Shown here: positions 21,524 through 56,714 of the stretch, in pieces
Numbering within the stretch: the first letter of the stretch is position 1
Layout of the letters: each line of letters opens with the position of its first letter
From: Streptomyces olivoverticillatus
Lineage (GTDB): Bacteria > Actinomycetota > Actinomycetes > Streptomycetales > Streptomycetaceae
DNA: 64,000 nt
Direction: 5' to 3'
NCBI RefSeq assembly: GCF_014203555.1
Contig: NZ_JACHJH010000006.1
Coordinates: 186,001-250,000, forward strand
Position numbers and translations under genes: made by a program
The notes under the pieces: model-generated
Told to the model about the DNA's origin: nothing
Database searches by the model: none
Seen by the model: the letters and a program-made list of their open reading frames with translations, nothing else

Positions 21524-22954
21524 ATGATCGACGCCAAGCAACGCAACGTCGCGCTCCTGGTCGCGGGCTGCTTTTTTATGGAAAACCTGGACGGCACCAT
21601 CGTGTCGACCGCCGCCCCGAGCATGGGCGCGGCCCTGGGCGTGGCCCCCGCCGCGATCGGCCTGGTCGTCACCGCCTACCTGGTGACGCTGGCCGTGCTG
21701 ATACCCCTCAGCGGCTGGCTGACCGCCCGCTTCGGGGCGCGGCGGGTGTTCCTCACCGCCATCACCGTCTTCACCCTTGCCTCGCTCGCCTGCGCCCTGA
21801 GCGAGAACCTCGGGCAGCTGGTCGCCATGCGGGTGCTGCAGGGCGCGGGCGGTGCGATGATGGTGCCCGTCGGCCGGCTGATGGTCGTGGCGAAGGCGGA
21901 GAAGCCCGACATCCCGCGGCTCGTGTCGTACGTGGTCTGGCCGGCCCTCGCCGCCCCCGTCATCGCGCCGCTGCTCGGCGGCCTCATCACCACCTACGCC
22001 GACTGGCGCTGGATGTTCCTCGTCAACCTCCCGCTGGGGGCGGTGGCCTTCGCCGTCGCCTGGCGGCTCGTGCAGGCCGGGCCGGAGGCCGGCCGTCCGC
22101 CGCGCCTGGACTGGTGGGGCGTCGCCCTCACCTCCACCGGCCTCGGCGCCCTGACCTGGACCGCCCATCTGCTGTCCGCCGCAGGCGCGGCCTGGGGCCC
22201 GGCGGCCGCCACCGGTGCGCTGTCCGTCCTCCTGCTGGCGGCGGCGGCCCGTCATCTGCTGCGCACCGAGCAGCCGTTGGCCGACCTCCGAACGCTGAAG
22301 GTGGCCACCTTCAGGGCGTCGGTGTCCGGCGGTTCGCTGTTCTGGATCGTGGTGGCGGCTGTTCCCTTCCTGCTGCCGCTGCTGTTCCAGGAGGCCTTCG
22401 GCTGGAGCGCGGTGGAGTCCGGCACGGTGGTGCTCTTCGTCTTCGTGGGCAACATCGGCATCAAGCCCGCCACCAACCGGCTGCTCGACCGCTACGGCTT
22501 CCGTCCGCTGCTGCTGGCCGCCACCGCCGGGGTGGCGGCGACCACGCTGCTGTGCGGCTTCCTCACCGCGTCGACGCCGGTTGCCGCGATCGTCGTCCTC
22601 GCCGTCGTCAGCGGCGCCGCGCGCTCGCTGGGGCTGACCTGCTACCAGGTCATCGCCTTCGCCGACATGCCCCAGGAGCGCATGCGCCACGCCAACACCC
22701 TGCAGTCCACCGCCCAGCAGGCCGCGGCGGGCCTCGGCGTGGTGGCCGCCACGGTCGCCCTCCGCCTCGGCGGCCCCCTCGGCGACGCGCTGCCGGGCCG
22801 GCCCGGCGCGACCACCGCCTACCACGTGGCATTCGGCCTGCTCGCGCTCGTATCGCTGGGCGCCCTGGCCGGAGCCCTGCGGCTGCACCCGGCCGCGGGC
22901 GACGCGGTCCGCCGCCCGGCGGCGCCCAAGCAGCCCGCCCCGGCCGGGCGGTAG
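21524..22954 (+). CDS. MFS drug efflux transporter (DHA2/EmrB-QacA type)
   Basis: Proton-driven exporter of 476 residues with about 12-14 helices. It begins with FFMENLDGTIVSTAAPSMG, the DHA2 motif D1 region in TM1. Motif A-like GWLTARFGARRVFLTAI lies after TM2, and WRWMFLVNLPLGAVAF is the DHA2 signature in TM6. ATG 21524 has GAGGA eight bases upstream; ATG 21515 is an alternative. It is divergent from a LysR gene, the probable regulator. It ends 3 bp from the convergent hydrolase gene. The substrate is unknown. Confidence 0.9.
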   Translation: MIDAKQRNVALLVAGCFFMENLDGTIVSTAAPSMGAALGVAPAAIGLVVTAYLVTLAVLIPLSGWLTARFGARRVFLTAITVFTLASLACALSENLGQLVAMRVLQGAGGAMMVPVGRLMVVAKAEKPDIPRLVSYVVWPALAAPVIAPLLGGLITTYADWRWMFLVNLPLGAVAFAVAWRLVQAGPEAGRPPRLDWWGVALTSTGLGALTWTAHLLSAAGAAWGPAAATGALSVLLLAAAARHLLRTEQPLADLRTLKVATFRASVSGGSLFWIVVAAVPFLLPLLFQEAFGWSAVESGTVVLFVFVGNIGIKPATNRLLDRYGFRPLLLAATAGVAATTLLCGFLTASTPVAAIVVLAVVSGAARSLGLTCYQVIAFADMPQERMRHANTLQSTAQQAAAGLGVVAATVALRLGGPLGDALPGRPGATTAYHVAFGLLALVSLGALAGALRLHPAAGDAVRRPAAPKQPAPAGR

Positions 22955-52106: not shown

Positions 52107-52619
52107 ATGGGCATGAGCGTGACCGTCTCGGCCGCGGCCGAGACCGATGCCGAGCAGATCCTCAAACTCCAGTACCTCTGTTATCAGAGCGAAGCCGAGC
52201 TCTACGGCGACTACTCCATCGAACCCCTCACCCAGAGCCTGGACGCGCTCCGCGCCGAGCTGGGCGGGGGCTGCGTCCTGGTGGCGCGGCTGGGCGACGA
52301 GGTCGTCGGCTCGGTGCGCGGCACGGTCGACGGCGACGGCACGGCCGTCATCAGCGGACTCATCGTGCACCCCCGGATGCAGCGGCACGGCCTGGGCCGC
52401 CGGCTGCTCGGCGCGATCGAGGAGCGACTGGCGGGGGAGTGGTCGGCCAAGCGCTACCGGCTCGCCATCGGCCAGCGCAGCGAGCGCACATTGCGGCTGC
52501 ACCGCAAGTGGGGTTACACGCAGACCGGTACGGAGCGGGTCACCGGCAAGCTCACCGTGATCACCCTGGAGAAGGAGGCCGGGCCCGCCGAGGCGCCCGC
52601 CCTCGCCACCAGTGCCTGA
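52107..52619 (+). CDS. GNAT-family N-acetyltransferase
   Basis: Acetyltransferase of 170 residues. The acetyl-CoA-binding motif A is VISGLIVHPRMQRHGLGRRLLGAIEE (the Q/RxxGxG/A element is QRHGLG), and motif B is RTLRLHRKWGYTQTG. It starts MGMSVTVSAAAETDAEQI with GGGGAGG in front. The substrate is unknown. It is separated from the sigma factor by about 100 bp on the same strand. Confidence 0.87.
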   Translation: MGMSVTVSAAAETDAEQILKLQYLCYQSEAELYGDYSIEPLTQSLDALRAELGGGCVLVARLGDEVVGSVRGTVDGDGTAVISGLIVHPRMQRHGLGRRLLGAIEERLAGEWSAKRYRLAIGQRSERTLRLHRKWGYTQTGTERVTGKLTVITLEKEAGPAEAPALATSA

Positions 52620-52637
52620 CCCGCCCCGCCTTACGCC

Positions 52638-53057
52638 TCAGCGCTCGGACCGGCGCAGCCAGATCATCGCGGTCACCGGCAGGATGACCGGGATGAAGAG
52701 ATAGCCCATGCCGTAGTCGGACCAGACCGTCGCATCGGGGAAGGCGGACGGCGCAACCAGCGTCCAGGTCCCCACGGTCAGCACCCCCGCCAGCTCGGCG
52801 GCGCAGCACACCAGCGCCGCCTTGCGGGCGGACTCGCCGCCGCGCACCAGCGAGTACGTGATGAACGCGTACACCACGGCCGCGGCCGCCGACAGGGCGT
52901 AGGCGAGCGGCGCCCTGCCGAAGTCCAGGATCATCTGGACGACCGAGCGGGACGCCGCGGCGACGGTGAACACCCCGTACAGCCACACCAGCAGCCTTCC
53001 CGGGCCCTGCCCGAGGTCGAAGCCGGACTTCGCCTGCGCGTCGGTGGATTCGGACAC
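52638..53057 (-). CDS. Small integral membrane protein, about four helices
   Basis: Hypothetical protein of 139 residues. After a ~20-residue hydrophilic start it has four hydrophobic segments (LLVWLYGVFTVAAASRSVVQ, LAYALSAAAAVVYAFITYSLV, AALVCCAAELAGVLTVGTW, GYLFIPVILPVTAMIWL). The ending WLRRSER is basic. GTG start 53057 with GGGGAGG. It follows another small membrane gene by 2 bp, so the two are co-transcribed. No assigned function. Confidence 0.8.
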   Translation of the reverse strand: MSESTDAQAKSGFDLGQGPGRLLVWLYGVFTVAAASRSVVQMILDFGRAPLAYALSAAAAVVYAFITYSLVRGGESARKAALVCCAAELAGVLTVGTWTLVAPSAFPDATVWSDYGMGYLFIPVILPVTAMIWLRRSER

Positions 53058-53059
53058 GG

Positions 53060-53419
53060 TCAGCCTCCCCAGATGTCGTAGAGCCGTACTTCCAGCACGG
53101 CGAGGATCACGGCGCCCGCCGACACCGTGGCCGAGCCCCAGCGGGTCCGCTCGGCCAGGGACATGAAGCCCGCCGCGGGCACGGCGGCCGCCGCGCCCAG
53201 GAGATACGCCACGAAGATCGCCGTGCCCTGCGCGGGCTTGTCGCCGCCCGCGAGGCGGACCAGGCCGATGACGAGCTGCAGCAGGACGAGCACCGAGACC
53301 ACGGCCATGCCGATGAAGTGCCAGTCCTTGGTGGGCTGGTCGCGCTTGAAGGCGAAGCCGCACCAGGCGGCCAGCGCGAGAGCGGCCAGCGAGGCCGCGA
53401 ACGTCAGCGCGTCGATCAC
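53060..53419 (-). CDS. Small integral membrane protein, four helices
   Basis: Hypothetical protein of 119 residues with GTG start at 53419. Four hydrophobic segments (ALTFAASLAALALAAWCGF, GMAVVSVLVLLQLVIGLVRL, TAIFVAYLLGAAAAVPAAGF, ATVSAGAVILAVLEVRLY) with KRDQPTKDWH between the first two. It forms a two-gene unit with the downstream membrane protein. Function unknown; conserved in Streptomyces as I recall it. Confidence 0.78.
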   Translation of the reverse strand: MIDALTFAASLAALALAAWCGFAFKRDQPTKDWHFIGMAVVSVLVLLQLVIGLVRLAGGDKPAQGTAIFVAYLLGAAAAVPAAGFMSLAERTRWGSATVSAGAVILAVLEVRLYDIWGG

Positions 53420-53619
53420 CGCGGCCGCCGGGCGGCGCGGGGGCGCGGAAGGGACAGGACAGGCATGGGGACGACTTTAATGGCCCGGCCCCCGACCACC
53501 GCGTGCGACCCCTGGGGCGGCTGCGGTGCCGACCGTGGACCGTCCACGGACCGATCAAGCCTGTCCGCTATTCGGACAAGCTTGGCCTGTTCGCACACCC
53601 TTCTGTTTTACTTGCCCGC

Positions 53620-53709
53620 ATGACCACGACGAGCACCCGCATTCTTGCGACCGAGGCGATGAAGACGCCCGGTGCTGCTCGTTGCATGTGTCGAATGTGT
53701 GACTGCTGA
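53620..53709 (+). CDS. Cys/Met-rich leader peptide upstream of metNIQ
   Basis: An ATG ORF of 29 codons whose last eight residues are CMCRMCDC, that is four Cys and two Met before TGA. TTTTAC (53606-53611), 8 bases before the ATG, could be a -10 box, and TTGGCC (53582-53587) a weak -35, so the ORF would be leaderless. Polycysteine leaderless ORFs act as cysteine-responsive attenuators in mycobacteria. The ~200 bases before metN hold a hairpin (CTCGC 53726-53730 with GCGAG 53739-53743). Role inferred. Confidence 0.75.
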   Translation: MTTTSTRILATEAMKTPGAARCMCRMCDC

Positions 53710-53923
53710 GGGCCCCCGTCTGTGCCTCGCGCCCCGAAGCGAGACCCGTAGAGCCCCGCATCCGGCCTCCCCGCCGGCGCGGCCCGCTCCGCCCCCGCGT
53801 CACCAGGATCCCTTAAGACCCCGCGCCCAGAAGTGCGCCCGGGCTCCCAATGCCGCGTTCCGCAATGAATGCCCGTGCGTCGGCACCACCACCGCCACGC
53901 ACTCGACAGTGACGGAATCCCCT

Positions 53924-54973
53924 GTGATCACCACTACGGGCCTGACAAAGGTCTACCGCTCACGAGGCCGCGAGGTCACCGCTCTCGACGGCGTCGATCT
54001 GCACGTCCGCGAGGGCGAGGTGTACGGCGTCGTCGGCCAGAGCGGCGCCGGAAAGTCGACCCTCATCCGCTGCGTGAACCTCCTGGAGCGTCCCACCTCC
54101 GGCACGGTCACCGTCGCGGGCCAGGACCTCACCGCACTCGCCGGACGGGGACTGCGGGCGGGCGCCGCCCTGCGCGAGGCGCGCAGCCACATCGGCATGG
54201 TCTTCCAGCACTTCAACCTGCTCTCCTCGCGCACCGTGCAGTCCAACATCGAGCTGCCGCTGGAGATCCTCGGCCTCTCCGGCCAGGAGCGCCGGCGCAA
54301 GGCCCTCGACCTGCTGGACCTGGTCGGCCTCGCCGACAAGGCCAAGGCCTACCCCGGCCAGCTCTCCGGCGGCCAGAAGCAGCGCGTCGGCATCGCCCGC
54401 GCCCTGGCCGGCGACCCCAAGGTGCTGCTCTCCGACGAGTCGACCTCCGCGCTCGACCCGGAGACCACCCGCTCCATCCTCCAGCTGCTGCGCGACCTCA
54501 ACCAGCAGCTCGGCCTGACCGTCCTGCTCATCACCCACGAAATGGACGTCGTCAAGACCATCTGCGACTCCGCGGCCCTGATGAAGGGCGGCCGCGTCGT
54601 GGAGTCCGGCACCGTCGCCGAACTGCTCGCCACCCCCGGCTCCGAGCTCGCCGCCGAGCTCTTCCCGGTCGGCGGCGAGCCCTCCGGCCCCGACCGCACC
54701 GTCGTGGACGTCACCTTCCACGGCGAGGCCGCCACCCAGCCGGTCATCTCCCAGCTCTCCCGTACCTACAACGTCGACATCTCGATCCTGGGCGCCGCGA
54801 TGGACACCGTCGGCGGCAAGCAGGTCGGCCGGATGCGCATCGAACTGCCCGGCCGCTTCGAGGAGAACGTCGTCCCCATCGGCTTCCTGCGCGAGCAGGG
54901 CCTGCAGGTCGACGTCGCCGACGTGCACACCCCGGCACCCGCCGACGCGCTCCTTAAGGAAGGTGCCAAGTGA
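53924..54973 (+). CDS. metN: Methionine ABC transporter ATP-binding protein
   Basis: ATPase of a MetNIQ-type importer for methionine (or related sulphur amino acids), 349 residues. Walker A GQSGAGKST (residues 38-46), Q-loop in GMVFQHFNLLSSRTV, signature LSGGQKQR, Walker B VLLSDESTSALD, and H-loop LLITHEMD. The C-terminal NIL domain (about 265-345, VVDVTFHG) is the methionine-sensing regulatory domain. Start GTG 53924; GTG 53909 is a possible alternative; neither has a strong ribosome-binding site. Overlaps metI by 4 bp. Confidence 0.94.
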   Translation: MITTTGLTKVYRSRGREVTALDGVDLHVREGEVYGVVGQSGAGKSTLIRCVNLLERPTSGTVTVAGQDLTALAGRGLRAGAALREARSHIGMVFQHFNLLSSRTVQSNIELPLEILGLSGQERRRKALDLLDLVGLADKAKAYPGQLSGGQKQRVGIARALAGDPKVLLSDESTSALDPETTRSILQLLRDLNQQLGLTVLLITHEMDVVKTICDSAALMKGGRVVESGTVAELLATPGSELAAELFPVGGEPSGPDRTVVDVTFHGEAATQPVISQLSRTYNVDISILGAAMDTVGGKQVGRMRIELPGRFEENVVPIGFLREQGLQVDVADVHTPAPADALLKEGAK

Positions 54974-55749
54974 CCTGGACCGAGATGCAGCCCCTGCTGC
55001 ACGACGCCTGTCTCGACACCCTCTTCATGGTGTGGTGGTCCACCCTCTACGCCGTCCTCGGCGGCCTGCCGCTCGGCCTGCTGCTCGTCCTCACCGACCG
55101 GGGCGCGCTGCTGCAGAACGTGGTGGTCAACAAGGTCCTCGGCGCCGTGCTCAACCTCGGCCGCTCGCTGCCCTTCATCATCCTCATCGTCTGGCTGATC
55201 CCCTTCAGCCGCGCCGTGGTCGGCACCTCCATCGGCCCCAGCGCCGCCGTGGTGGCCCTCGCCGTCGGCGCCGTCCCCTTCTTCGCCCGCCTGGTGGAGT
55301 CCTCGGTGCGCGAGGTCGACCACGGGCTCGTCGAAGCGGTGCAGTCGATGGGCGGCGGCACCTGGACGATCGTCTTCAAGGTGCTGCTGCCGCAGGCCCT
55401 GCCCTCCCTCATCGCGGGCCTCACCACCACCGTGATCACCCTCATCGGCTACTCGGCGATGGCCGGCGCGGTCGGCGGCGGCGGCCTGGGCAACCTCGCC
55501 ATCACCTACGGCTACATGCGCCACGAGACCGGCCTGATGAACATCACCATCGTGCTGCTCATCGTCATCGTCACCGCCGTCCAGCTCCTCGGCGACCTGG
55601 TCGTGCGCCGCCTCGCCGGACGCGGCGGCCGCCAGGCGGCCCCCGTGGGCCTGCGCCGGCTGCTGCCCGCCCAGCGCACCCCCGCCACCGTGCCCGCCCC
55701 CCGGGCCGCGGCGGAAGCCGAGGCCACCACGGCCGGCAAGGCGGCCTGA
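54970..55749 (+). CDS. metI: Methionine ABC transporter permease
   Basis: Permease of 259 residues with about five helices and the EAA loop VEAVQSMGGGTWTIVFKVLLPQALP (partly quoted) that docks to MetN. LGRSLPFIILIVWLIPF and GGGGLGNLAITYGY are MetI features. The C-terminal ~45 residues are an Ala/Pro-rich cytoplasmic extension not needed for the fold. Translationally coupled to metN. Confidence 0.93.
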   Translation: MTWTEMQPLLHDACLDTLFMVWWSTLYAVLGGLPLGLLLVLTDRGALLQNVVVNKVLGAVLNLGRSLPFIILIVWLIPFSRAVVGTSIGPSAAVVALAVGAVPFFARLVESSVREVDHGLVEAVQSMGGGTWTIVFKVLLPQALPSLIAGLTTTVITLIGYSAMAGAVGGGGLGNLAITYGYMRHETGLMNITIVLLIVIVTAVQLLGDLVVRRLAGRGGRQAAPVGLRRLLPAQRTPATVPAPRAAAEAEATTAGKAA

Positions 55750-55847: not shown

Positions 55848-56714
55848 GTGCGTACCACCATCAAGCTCACCGCCGCCGTCGCCGCAGCCGCAGCCCTCAC
55901 CCTGGGCCTGAGCGCCTGCAGCGCCCCCTCCGACACCTCCGCCGGTTCGGAGAAGAAGGGCAAGGACGCCGACCCCAGCGCCGAGCTCGTCGTCGCCGCC
56001 AGCCCCACCCCGCACGGCGACATCCTCAACTTCGTCCGCGACAACCTCGCCGCGAAGGCCGGGCTCAAGCTCAAGGTCAGAGACTTCAACGACTACGTCC
56101 TGCCCAACACCGCCACGCAGAACGGCGAAGTCGACGCCAACTTCTTCCAGCACAAGCCCTACCTCGACGACTTCAACAAGAAGAACAAGACGGACATCGT
56201 GCCCGTCGTCAACGTCGAGATCGAGCCGCTGGGCCTGTACTCCAAGAAGGACAAGAAGGTCTCCGACCTCGGCTCCGGCTCCACCATCGCCGTCCCCAAC
56301 GACGCCACCAACGAGGGCCGCGCCCTCAAGCTCCTCGCGGACAACGGCGTCATCAAGCTGAAGGACGGCGTCGGCGCCGAGGCCAAGCTCTCCGACGTCG
56401 AGGACAAGAAGGGCGTCAAGTTCACCGAGCTCGAGGCCGCCCAGATCCCCTCCCGCCTCGCCGACGTCGACGCCGCCGTCATCAACGGCAACTTCGCCAT
56501 CGGAGCCAAGCTCAACCCCGCCAAGGACTCCCTCGTCCTGGAGAAGGCCGAGGGCAACCCCTACGCCAACTTCCTCGCGGTCAAGAAGGGCAACGAGTCC
56601 GACCCCCGGATCCAGAAGCTCGCCAAGCTCCTCAACTCCGACGAGGTCAAGAAGTTCATCCAGCAGAAGTTCAGCGGCGCCGTCATCCCCGCCTTCGGTC
56701 CCGCAAAGAGCTGA
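55848..56714 (+). CDS. metQ: Methionine-binding lipoprotein (NlpA/MetQ family)
   Basis: Substrate-binding lipoprotein of 288 residues. The lipobox LGLSAC places the lipidated Cys at residue 24. The NlpA fold is shown by VVAASPTPHGDIL, QNGEVDANFFQHKPYLDDFNK and INGNFAIGAKLNPAKDSL. A Ser/Gly/Lys linker follows the Cys. AAGGAAGG lies upstream of the GTG. About 100 bp separates it from metI, and a terminator follows. Partner of MetN and MetI. Confidence 0.95.
   Translation: MRTTIKLTAAVAAAAALTLGLSACSAPSDTSAGSEKKGKDADPSAELVVAASPTPHGDILNFVRDNLAAKAGLKLKVRDFNDYVLPNTATQNGEVDANFFQHKPYLDDFNKKNKTDIVPVVNVEIEPLGLYSKKDKKVSDLGSGSTIAVPNDATNEGRALKLLADNGVIKLKDGVGAEAKLSDVEDKKGVKFTELEAAQIPSRLADVDAAVINGNFAIGAKLNPAKDSLVLEKAEGNPYANFLAVKKGNESDPRIQKLAKLLNSDEVKKFIQQKFSGAVIPAFGPAKS

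Follow-up and report, generated by a model that had tools for sequence, protein, structure and literature searches.

Leaderless polycysteine attenuators of mycobacteria were reportedly described by Canestrari in 2020. Such attenuators are cited in PMC13236596, and Cys-directed attenuation in mycobacteria has also been the subject of speculation (Shell 2015, PMC4633059). Seliverstov 2005 (PMC1262725) presented Cys leaders for Propionibacterium and Bifidobacterium as well as for mycobacteria and, in the portion of the paper available here, found that methionine operons lacked conserved RNA structures. The same source described in Actinobacteria the LEU element, in which Leu codons pair with the Shine-Dalgarno box of leuA. 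Closest to the present locus is metL (SLIV_29928, MSTTSDRTPATEATTTPGARCMCRRMCAF) in the 2021 reannotation of S. lividans TK24, leaderless by RNA-seq and located before metNIQ; the accessible passages characterize it by several methionines and threonines and call its termination unclear (PMC8079986).

We have analyzed a window of 64,000 nucleotides (the whole stretch of DNA under study) of Streptomyces olivoverticillatus, in which a sequence-only reading had proposed a leaderless Cys/Met leader peptide controlling a methionine ABC transporter. The main elements are:

53604 to 53612, plus strand: extended -10 element TG-T-TTTACT in leaderless placement, found in 108/108 Streptomyces loci and 38/40 loci of other genera
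53620 to 53709, plus strand: leader peptide ORF of 29 codons plus TGA, orthologue of metL of S. lividans (PMC8079986), with a conserved peptide
53924 to 54973, plus strand: metN, methionine ABC transporter ATPase (ABC_tran and NIL of Pfam; TIGR02314 with 375 bits, below the cut-off of 499.7)
54970 to 55749, plus strand: metI, permease (NF008049 with 219.9 bits, cut-off 212)
55848 to 56714, plus strand: metQ, NlpA-type substrate-binding lipoprotein (Lipoprotein_9)

The ORF ending in CMCRMCDC that had been noticed before metN was confirmed (MTTTSTRILATEAMKTPGAARCMCRMCDC, coordinates including the stop). No other octapeptide that ends at a stop codon has 5 or more Cys/Met on either strand of the 64 kb, and in 40 shuffles of the window the same criterion gave a mean of 0.0. 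The -10-like element, TTTACT at 53607-53612, is extended by an upstream TG (TGTTTTACT for the whole of it) and leaves 7 nt to the leader ATG. This spacing was 6 or 7 nt in all of the 105 Streptomyces loci measured, which, together with the RNA-seq of the S. lividans orthologue (PMC8079986), fits the leaderless arrangement that had been suggested. The order downstream is metN-metI-metQ, with metN starting at a GTG 214 nt 3' of the leader stop, and the proposed linkage to metN is supported. We found no entry for the leader peptide in NCBIfam or Pfam. The search for a second copy of the leader in the genome gave none that was convincing (next best E 0.18).

With a probability that we put at roughly 0.7, the leader would act as an attenuator that responds, through the ribosome, to sulphur amino acids. 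Such an attenuator is built like the present locus, with a leaderless ORF whose conserved block encodes two amino acids that are rare and linked in metabolism, followed by a transporter for one of the two. Taken as a whole, the earlier proposal of a leaderless Cys/Met leader peptide controlling metNIQ is partly supported by our analysis.

The metN gene was searched in 150 Streptomyces genomes, giving 143 strong matches (E 2.4e-145 or better) and 7 weak matches to ABC ATPases. Upstream DNA was examined for 110 of the 143 strong-match genomes (G050, among the other 33, came without upstream DNA), and as two of the loci (L089 and L103) were cut by contig ends, 108 intact loci remained. The leader ORF was detected in 97/110 loci by a first peptide pattern and in 108/108 intact loci when the search was anchored on the -10 element. 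The usual Streptomyces peptide reads MTTTSxRxxATEAxxTPGARCMCRM(C/R)(A/D)(F/R/C), and those of L017 and L041 are letter-for-letter the published metL. Peptide length varied from 28 to 37 aa, always by whole codons, with the insertions mostly within the Cys/Met block (e.g. CMCRLMCRMCAF) and the frame, the end and the stop preserved, which argues that the frame of the ORF is read.

For the other genera of the Streptomycetaceae we used a covariance model (R1) that represents the leader, run with filters that lose weak matches. It hit 92 of the 121 genomes in the family, once in each, and these belong to 14 of the 17 genera. From the 64 matches outside Streptomyces 40 were taken, a sample that was selected by the model itself. 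In all 40 an ORF with an ATG start and terminal Cys codons occupied the expected position, and in 37 of them a metN start was recognised downstream. The peptides were much different outside the Cys codons (e.g. MTATTTCTPTGAAPAGERCMCCRMCHC). What persists between genera is the Cys/Met codons of the following element, while the remaining sequence and the bases of the hairpin described below change:

53683 to 53706, plus strand: regulatory codon block C-M-C-R-M-C-D-C, defined by Cys/Met and CGAATG counts over 148 loci

In the last 11 codons of the 148 Streptomycetaceae peptides there was at least one Cys in 148, at least one Met in 147 and at least two Cys in 142, and the pair Arg-Met stood close to the end in 147. 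A lack of conservation of the Cys/Met codons, which would have refuted the sequence-only reading, was thus not observed. Runs of adjacent Cys are absent from the window peptide and appear only in some of the other genera. These numbers bear on the published interpretation of metL (PMC8079986), that of a sensor of methionine, with threonines named as well, in which the Cys codons would be incidental. Methionine is the cargo imported by metNIQ, and the nearly universal Arg-Met, like the metL description itself, would suit a sensor of methionine only. However, the Cys codons are as constant as those for Met, and the Thr codons sit in the ORF hairpin, where their third positions are fixed, and vary in other genera. 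We consider it unlikely that methionine alone is read.

The leader is constrained also as RNA. Among the Streptomyces peptides 83 have 28 aa, and in these the third codon positions were nearly fixed, even at sites with four codons available, and Arg24 was encoded by CGA in 80/80. The hexamer CGAATG (Arg-Met) was found near the end of the ORF in 106/108 Streptomyces loci and 39/40 of the others (145/148). In genomes of this kind CGA is one of the rare Arg codons and is translated slowly. In the window the Arg codon between Cys and Met is located at 53692-53694. Nearly all loci have CGA at this place, and the codon may favour pausing of the ribosome in the leader. Two hairpins were identified:

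53626 to 53682, plus strand: hairpin within the ORF, from the inverted repeat 53626-53646 / 53662-53682 and the consensus fold, with a 3' arm that stops immediately before the Cys/Met codons
53726 to 53743, plus strand: post-stop hairpin CTCGC-GCCCCGAA-GCGAG with a conserved core and no T-run behind it, negative in the terminator scan

The covariation of the ORF hairpin was evaluated in an alignment (A1) of 27 of 30 deduplicated leaders, leaving out L066, L068 and L090. Both sides had changed in 7 of 23 pairs, compared to 2.1 +- 1.0 in shuffles, and none of 500 shuffles reached 7; the counted 23-pair structure takes in four pairs of the post-stop hairpin. In these 27 sequences 96.4% of the hairpin cells were paired, and 93.8% in the shuffles. 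When the hairpin was slid along the alignment as a control, 24-45% of the cells paired. The slide by -2 columns came near the observed 7 with 6 both-side pairs, but these comprised 6 cells versus 15, with 39% versus 96% of the cells paired. The folding z-score over 67 ORFs averaged -1.2. Single-sequence folds of 15 ORFs of other genera often had a hairpin at a similar place made of different bases, by visual reading and with no statistics attached.

The core of the post-stop hairpin (GCGCCCCGAAGCG, with up to 1 mismatch in the 110 nt that follow the stop) was present in 104/108 Streptomyces loci and in 20/40 loci of other genera, and its loop looks invariant. As a motif of a genome-wide regulon it was discarded, with 22 matches at up to 1 mismatch versus 18 for the backward control. 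The window contains one further exact copy of the 14-base core, at 21728-21741 on the minus strand, and the backward-control counts suggest that this copy is due to chance. The cmscan of 52500-55000 against Rfam gave four sub-threshold matches, none of them in the leader, in agreement with the earlier remark that no SAM riboswitch pattern could be recognised. The terminator scan of 53400-54000 found no intrinsic terminator, so a trp-type attenuator was discarded too.

Such constraint raises the question of a mainly structured regulatory RNA, for example one binding a metabolite or a protein, whose ORF would be read with the amino acids being irrelevant. The near-fixed third positions, with CGA at Arg24, the covarying ORF hairpin and the conserved post-stop hairpin with its invariant-looking loop would all be expected from it. 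Against this, the Cys/Met codons outlast the changes of sequence and of hairpin bases between genera, the changes in length keep the frame, Rfam gave no match of note and the post-stop hairpin is missing in half of the other-genera loci. We regard an RNA indifferent to the amino acids as improbable.

A leader that senses Cys and Met through the ribosome could work as follows. Transcription, we infer for this genome, would start at or beside the ATG at 53620, and the leader would be translated at once. When charging of Cys-tRNA and/or Met-tRNA falls short, the ribosome would stall on C-M-C-R-M-C, directly after the 3' arm of the hairpin. The stalled ribosome would hold the ORF hairpin open and cover the conserved GTGTCGAATGTG, preventing the OFF state, and metNIQ would be expressed. 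With plentiful Cys and Met the ribosome would finish and leave, the leader would refold and metN would be kept off. How the OFF step could be achieved involves two further regions:

53746 to 53885, plus strand: spacer rich in C (C over G skew 0.25) and with low column conservation, where Rho may load
53899 to 53926, plus strand: metN initiation region GCACTCGACAGTGACGGAATCCCCTGTG, partly complementary to the regulatory codon block, from conservation and the consensus fold

For the OFF step we tentatively and slightly favour over Rho a version in which the stretch of regulatory codons occludes the region where metN begins, a mode described for LEU elements and for the polycysteine leaders of mycobacteria. 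In the pairing model the stretch GTGTCGAATGTG would pair with GCACTCGACA. The helix is present in the consensus fold, and the complementarity is conserved in Streptomyces. Counts of the start region exclude L102, with no recognised metN start, as well as L143, L144 and L164, and refer to the remaining 144 of 148 loci. The covariation analysis of this helix gave a null result, with 80.7% of the cells paired versus 80.9% with permuted partners and 3 both-side pairs versus 4.3; outside Streptomyces 53% of the cells were paired. Duplex energies in Streptomyces were likewise the same with own and foreign partners (-25.4 versus -25.5 kcal/mol), with -22.4 (sd 4.3) for the shuffled codon block. Between genera (37 loci) there was a small difference, -24.3 kcal/mol for own and -23.7 for foreign partners. 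We have also masked the bases that a ribosome would occupy. With the mask at the first Cys codon, the opening energy of metN was lower by 0.54 kcal/mol on average, decreasing by more than 1 kcal/mol in 33/107 loci and increasing by more than 1 in 8. Control masks gave similar counts (decreases and increases above 1 of 29 and 14 at codon 7, 37 and 6 at the stop, and 3 to 13 and 7 to 18 in the spacer), indicating that the effect of masking is small and unspecific to the Cys codons. We keep this pairing as a hypothesis for the OFF step.

Attenuation dependent on Rho is a nearly as probable version of the same step. Once the ribosome is done with the leader, Rho would load on the C-rich spacer and stop transcription before metN. 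Rho would be blocked by a ribosome that stalls close to the end of the leader or by the fold which that ribosome enforces, with the Cys/Met codons still being read. In the window the C over G skew of the spacer, 0.25, falls at the 98th percentile of the 140-mers, a comparison drawn within the same window. In all of the 138 spacers that measure 50 nt or more C exceeded G, with a mean skew of 0.21. The distance from leader stop to metN was 108-359 nt, with a median of 214.5 (144 loci). The lack of an intrinsic terminator mentioned above goes in the same direction, and a role of Rho was proposed for the mycobacterial cys leaders (Seliverstov 2005, PMC1262725, in the part available). However, the spacers were no less structured than their shuffles (mean z -0.6, 33 spacers), and Rho leaves unexplained why the metN start region is conserved so far upstream of the start codon.

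Upstream of the promoter there is another conserved element:

53563 to 53577, no strand: palindrome GTCCGCTATTCGGAC, putative regulator site, 57 bp before the leader ATG

The pattern GTCCG-N5-CGGAC with up to 1 mismatch was found in 102/108 Streptomyces loci versus 1/108 shuffled controls, mostly 56-58 bp before the leader ATG, and in 22/40 loci of other genera. In this genome it occurs 49 times with up to 1 mismatch, against 19 for the backward control. The frames adjoining the three other exact matches were not recognisable, by inspection, as sulphur or leucine genes. The site at 53563 fits the 15-bp form GTCC-N7-GGAC of NdgR, a regulator of IclR type. We take SCO1557-SCO1559 to be metNIQ. 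The published sites of NdgR include GTCCGCCATGCGGAC and its MEME consensus has A at position 5; metNIQ is absent from the list of 34 NdgR genes as far as the available text extends, and neither metN nor SCO1557-SCO1559 occurs in that text (PMC4340878). NdgR was rejected as the candidate for the palindrome, which is alike in form but precedes genes outside its published list.

To look beyond the Streptomycetaceae, metN was searched in 80 genomes of a second actinomycete family (f17); 37 passed 1e-90 and 35 upstream regions were examined. A short ORF with at least 4 Cys/Met in its last 14 codons was present in 16/35 metN loci, while in controls on 34 loci the same test gave 0 on the antisense strand and 1.8% in dinucleotide shuffles. 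The other 19 loci, including L201, had no Cys/Met-rich short ORF by this test. Two of the peptides, L212 (ending in CRCRMCDR) and L213 (CCRMCAF), have Streptomyces-like ends and lie close behind TTAACT or TTTACT. Others are unrelated in sequence; that of L194, for example, ends in MCRGTRMCGTARMCAMGGMPSMR. Besides, 11/35 loci of this family have a short frame with an LPFxPGT motif (e.g. MNCPADTLVLRRLSHLPFHPGTR) close before metN, within 450 bases and usually behind the Cys/Met-rich ORF (L194, L196, L200, L215, L217 and L222, the remaining ones being L223, L227, L234, L235 and L237). This frame could be a second leader peptide. Among 11 metN loci outside both families (L195 and L202-L211, of which L202 is short and several keep a metN start that was not re-anchored), a leaderless-looking Cys ORF was seen in L203 only. 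This locus (family f28) carries MTTTAGTPRHLRRAAPMACCRRPDASC, 459 bases upstream of metN.

The synthesis of drugs in Streptomyces often draws on Cys, Met and SAM, and the sensing of sulphur amino acids at the RNA level has been little explored there. A leader found throughout the family offers a sensor that can be tested directly and, if both types of codons count, a single leader peptide would read two amino acids of one metabolic module. We put forward, with some reserve, that through the interleaved Cys and Met codons the ribosome gauges sulphur amino acids in general for the import of methionine, using in place of a terminator the ORF hairpin that it would open when stalled, throughout the Streptomycetaceae, and that this arrangement recurs, partly with unrelated peptides, in the second actinomycete family.

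The element itself is already known, as it is an orthologue of metL and a leader of a known kind. It holds the same place before metNIQ as metL of S. lividans, and the same peptide pattern appears in 108/108 Streptomyces loci. In the accessible part of the metL paper (PMC8079986) the emphasis is on Met and Thr. Our additions to it are the Cys codons and the distribution of the leader in the family, along with the hairpin within the ORF and the upstream palindrome. No report of a mixed Cys/Met leader at metN was recognised in the literature searched (one library, partly by passages). What our analysis adds is the conserved Cys/Met block, the RNA constraint on the ORF and its covarying hairpin, and the recurrence in f17, together with the post-stop hairpin, the C-rich spacer devoid of a terminator and the upstream palindrome. 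The LEU element, as described in the available text of Seliverstov 2005 (PMC1262725), resembles this leader in having no terminator and in regulatory codons that complement the sequence around the start of the following gene, a likeness in description. In LEU the codons are for Leu, a pseudoknot was proposed and the pairing involves the Shine-Dalgarno box itself, whereas at metN the putative pairing lies just upstream of that box and is without covariation support. With the mycobacterial polycysteine leaders, as far as the sources at hand describe them, the window leader shares a leaderless ORF (in the window, a predicted one), Cys codons near the end, a sulphur operon next to it and the lack of a terminator. 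Also there the stalled ribosome was proposed to free the start region of the next gene, as we tentatively propose here. In contrast to that type, the Cys codons form no run but are interrupted by Met and Arg, the genes downstream encode a methionine importer and not cysteine functions, the ORF contains a covarying hairpin, and the response to Cys is a predicted one.
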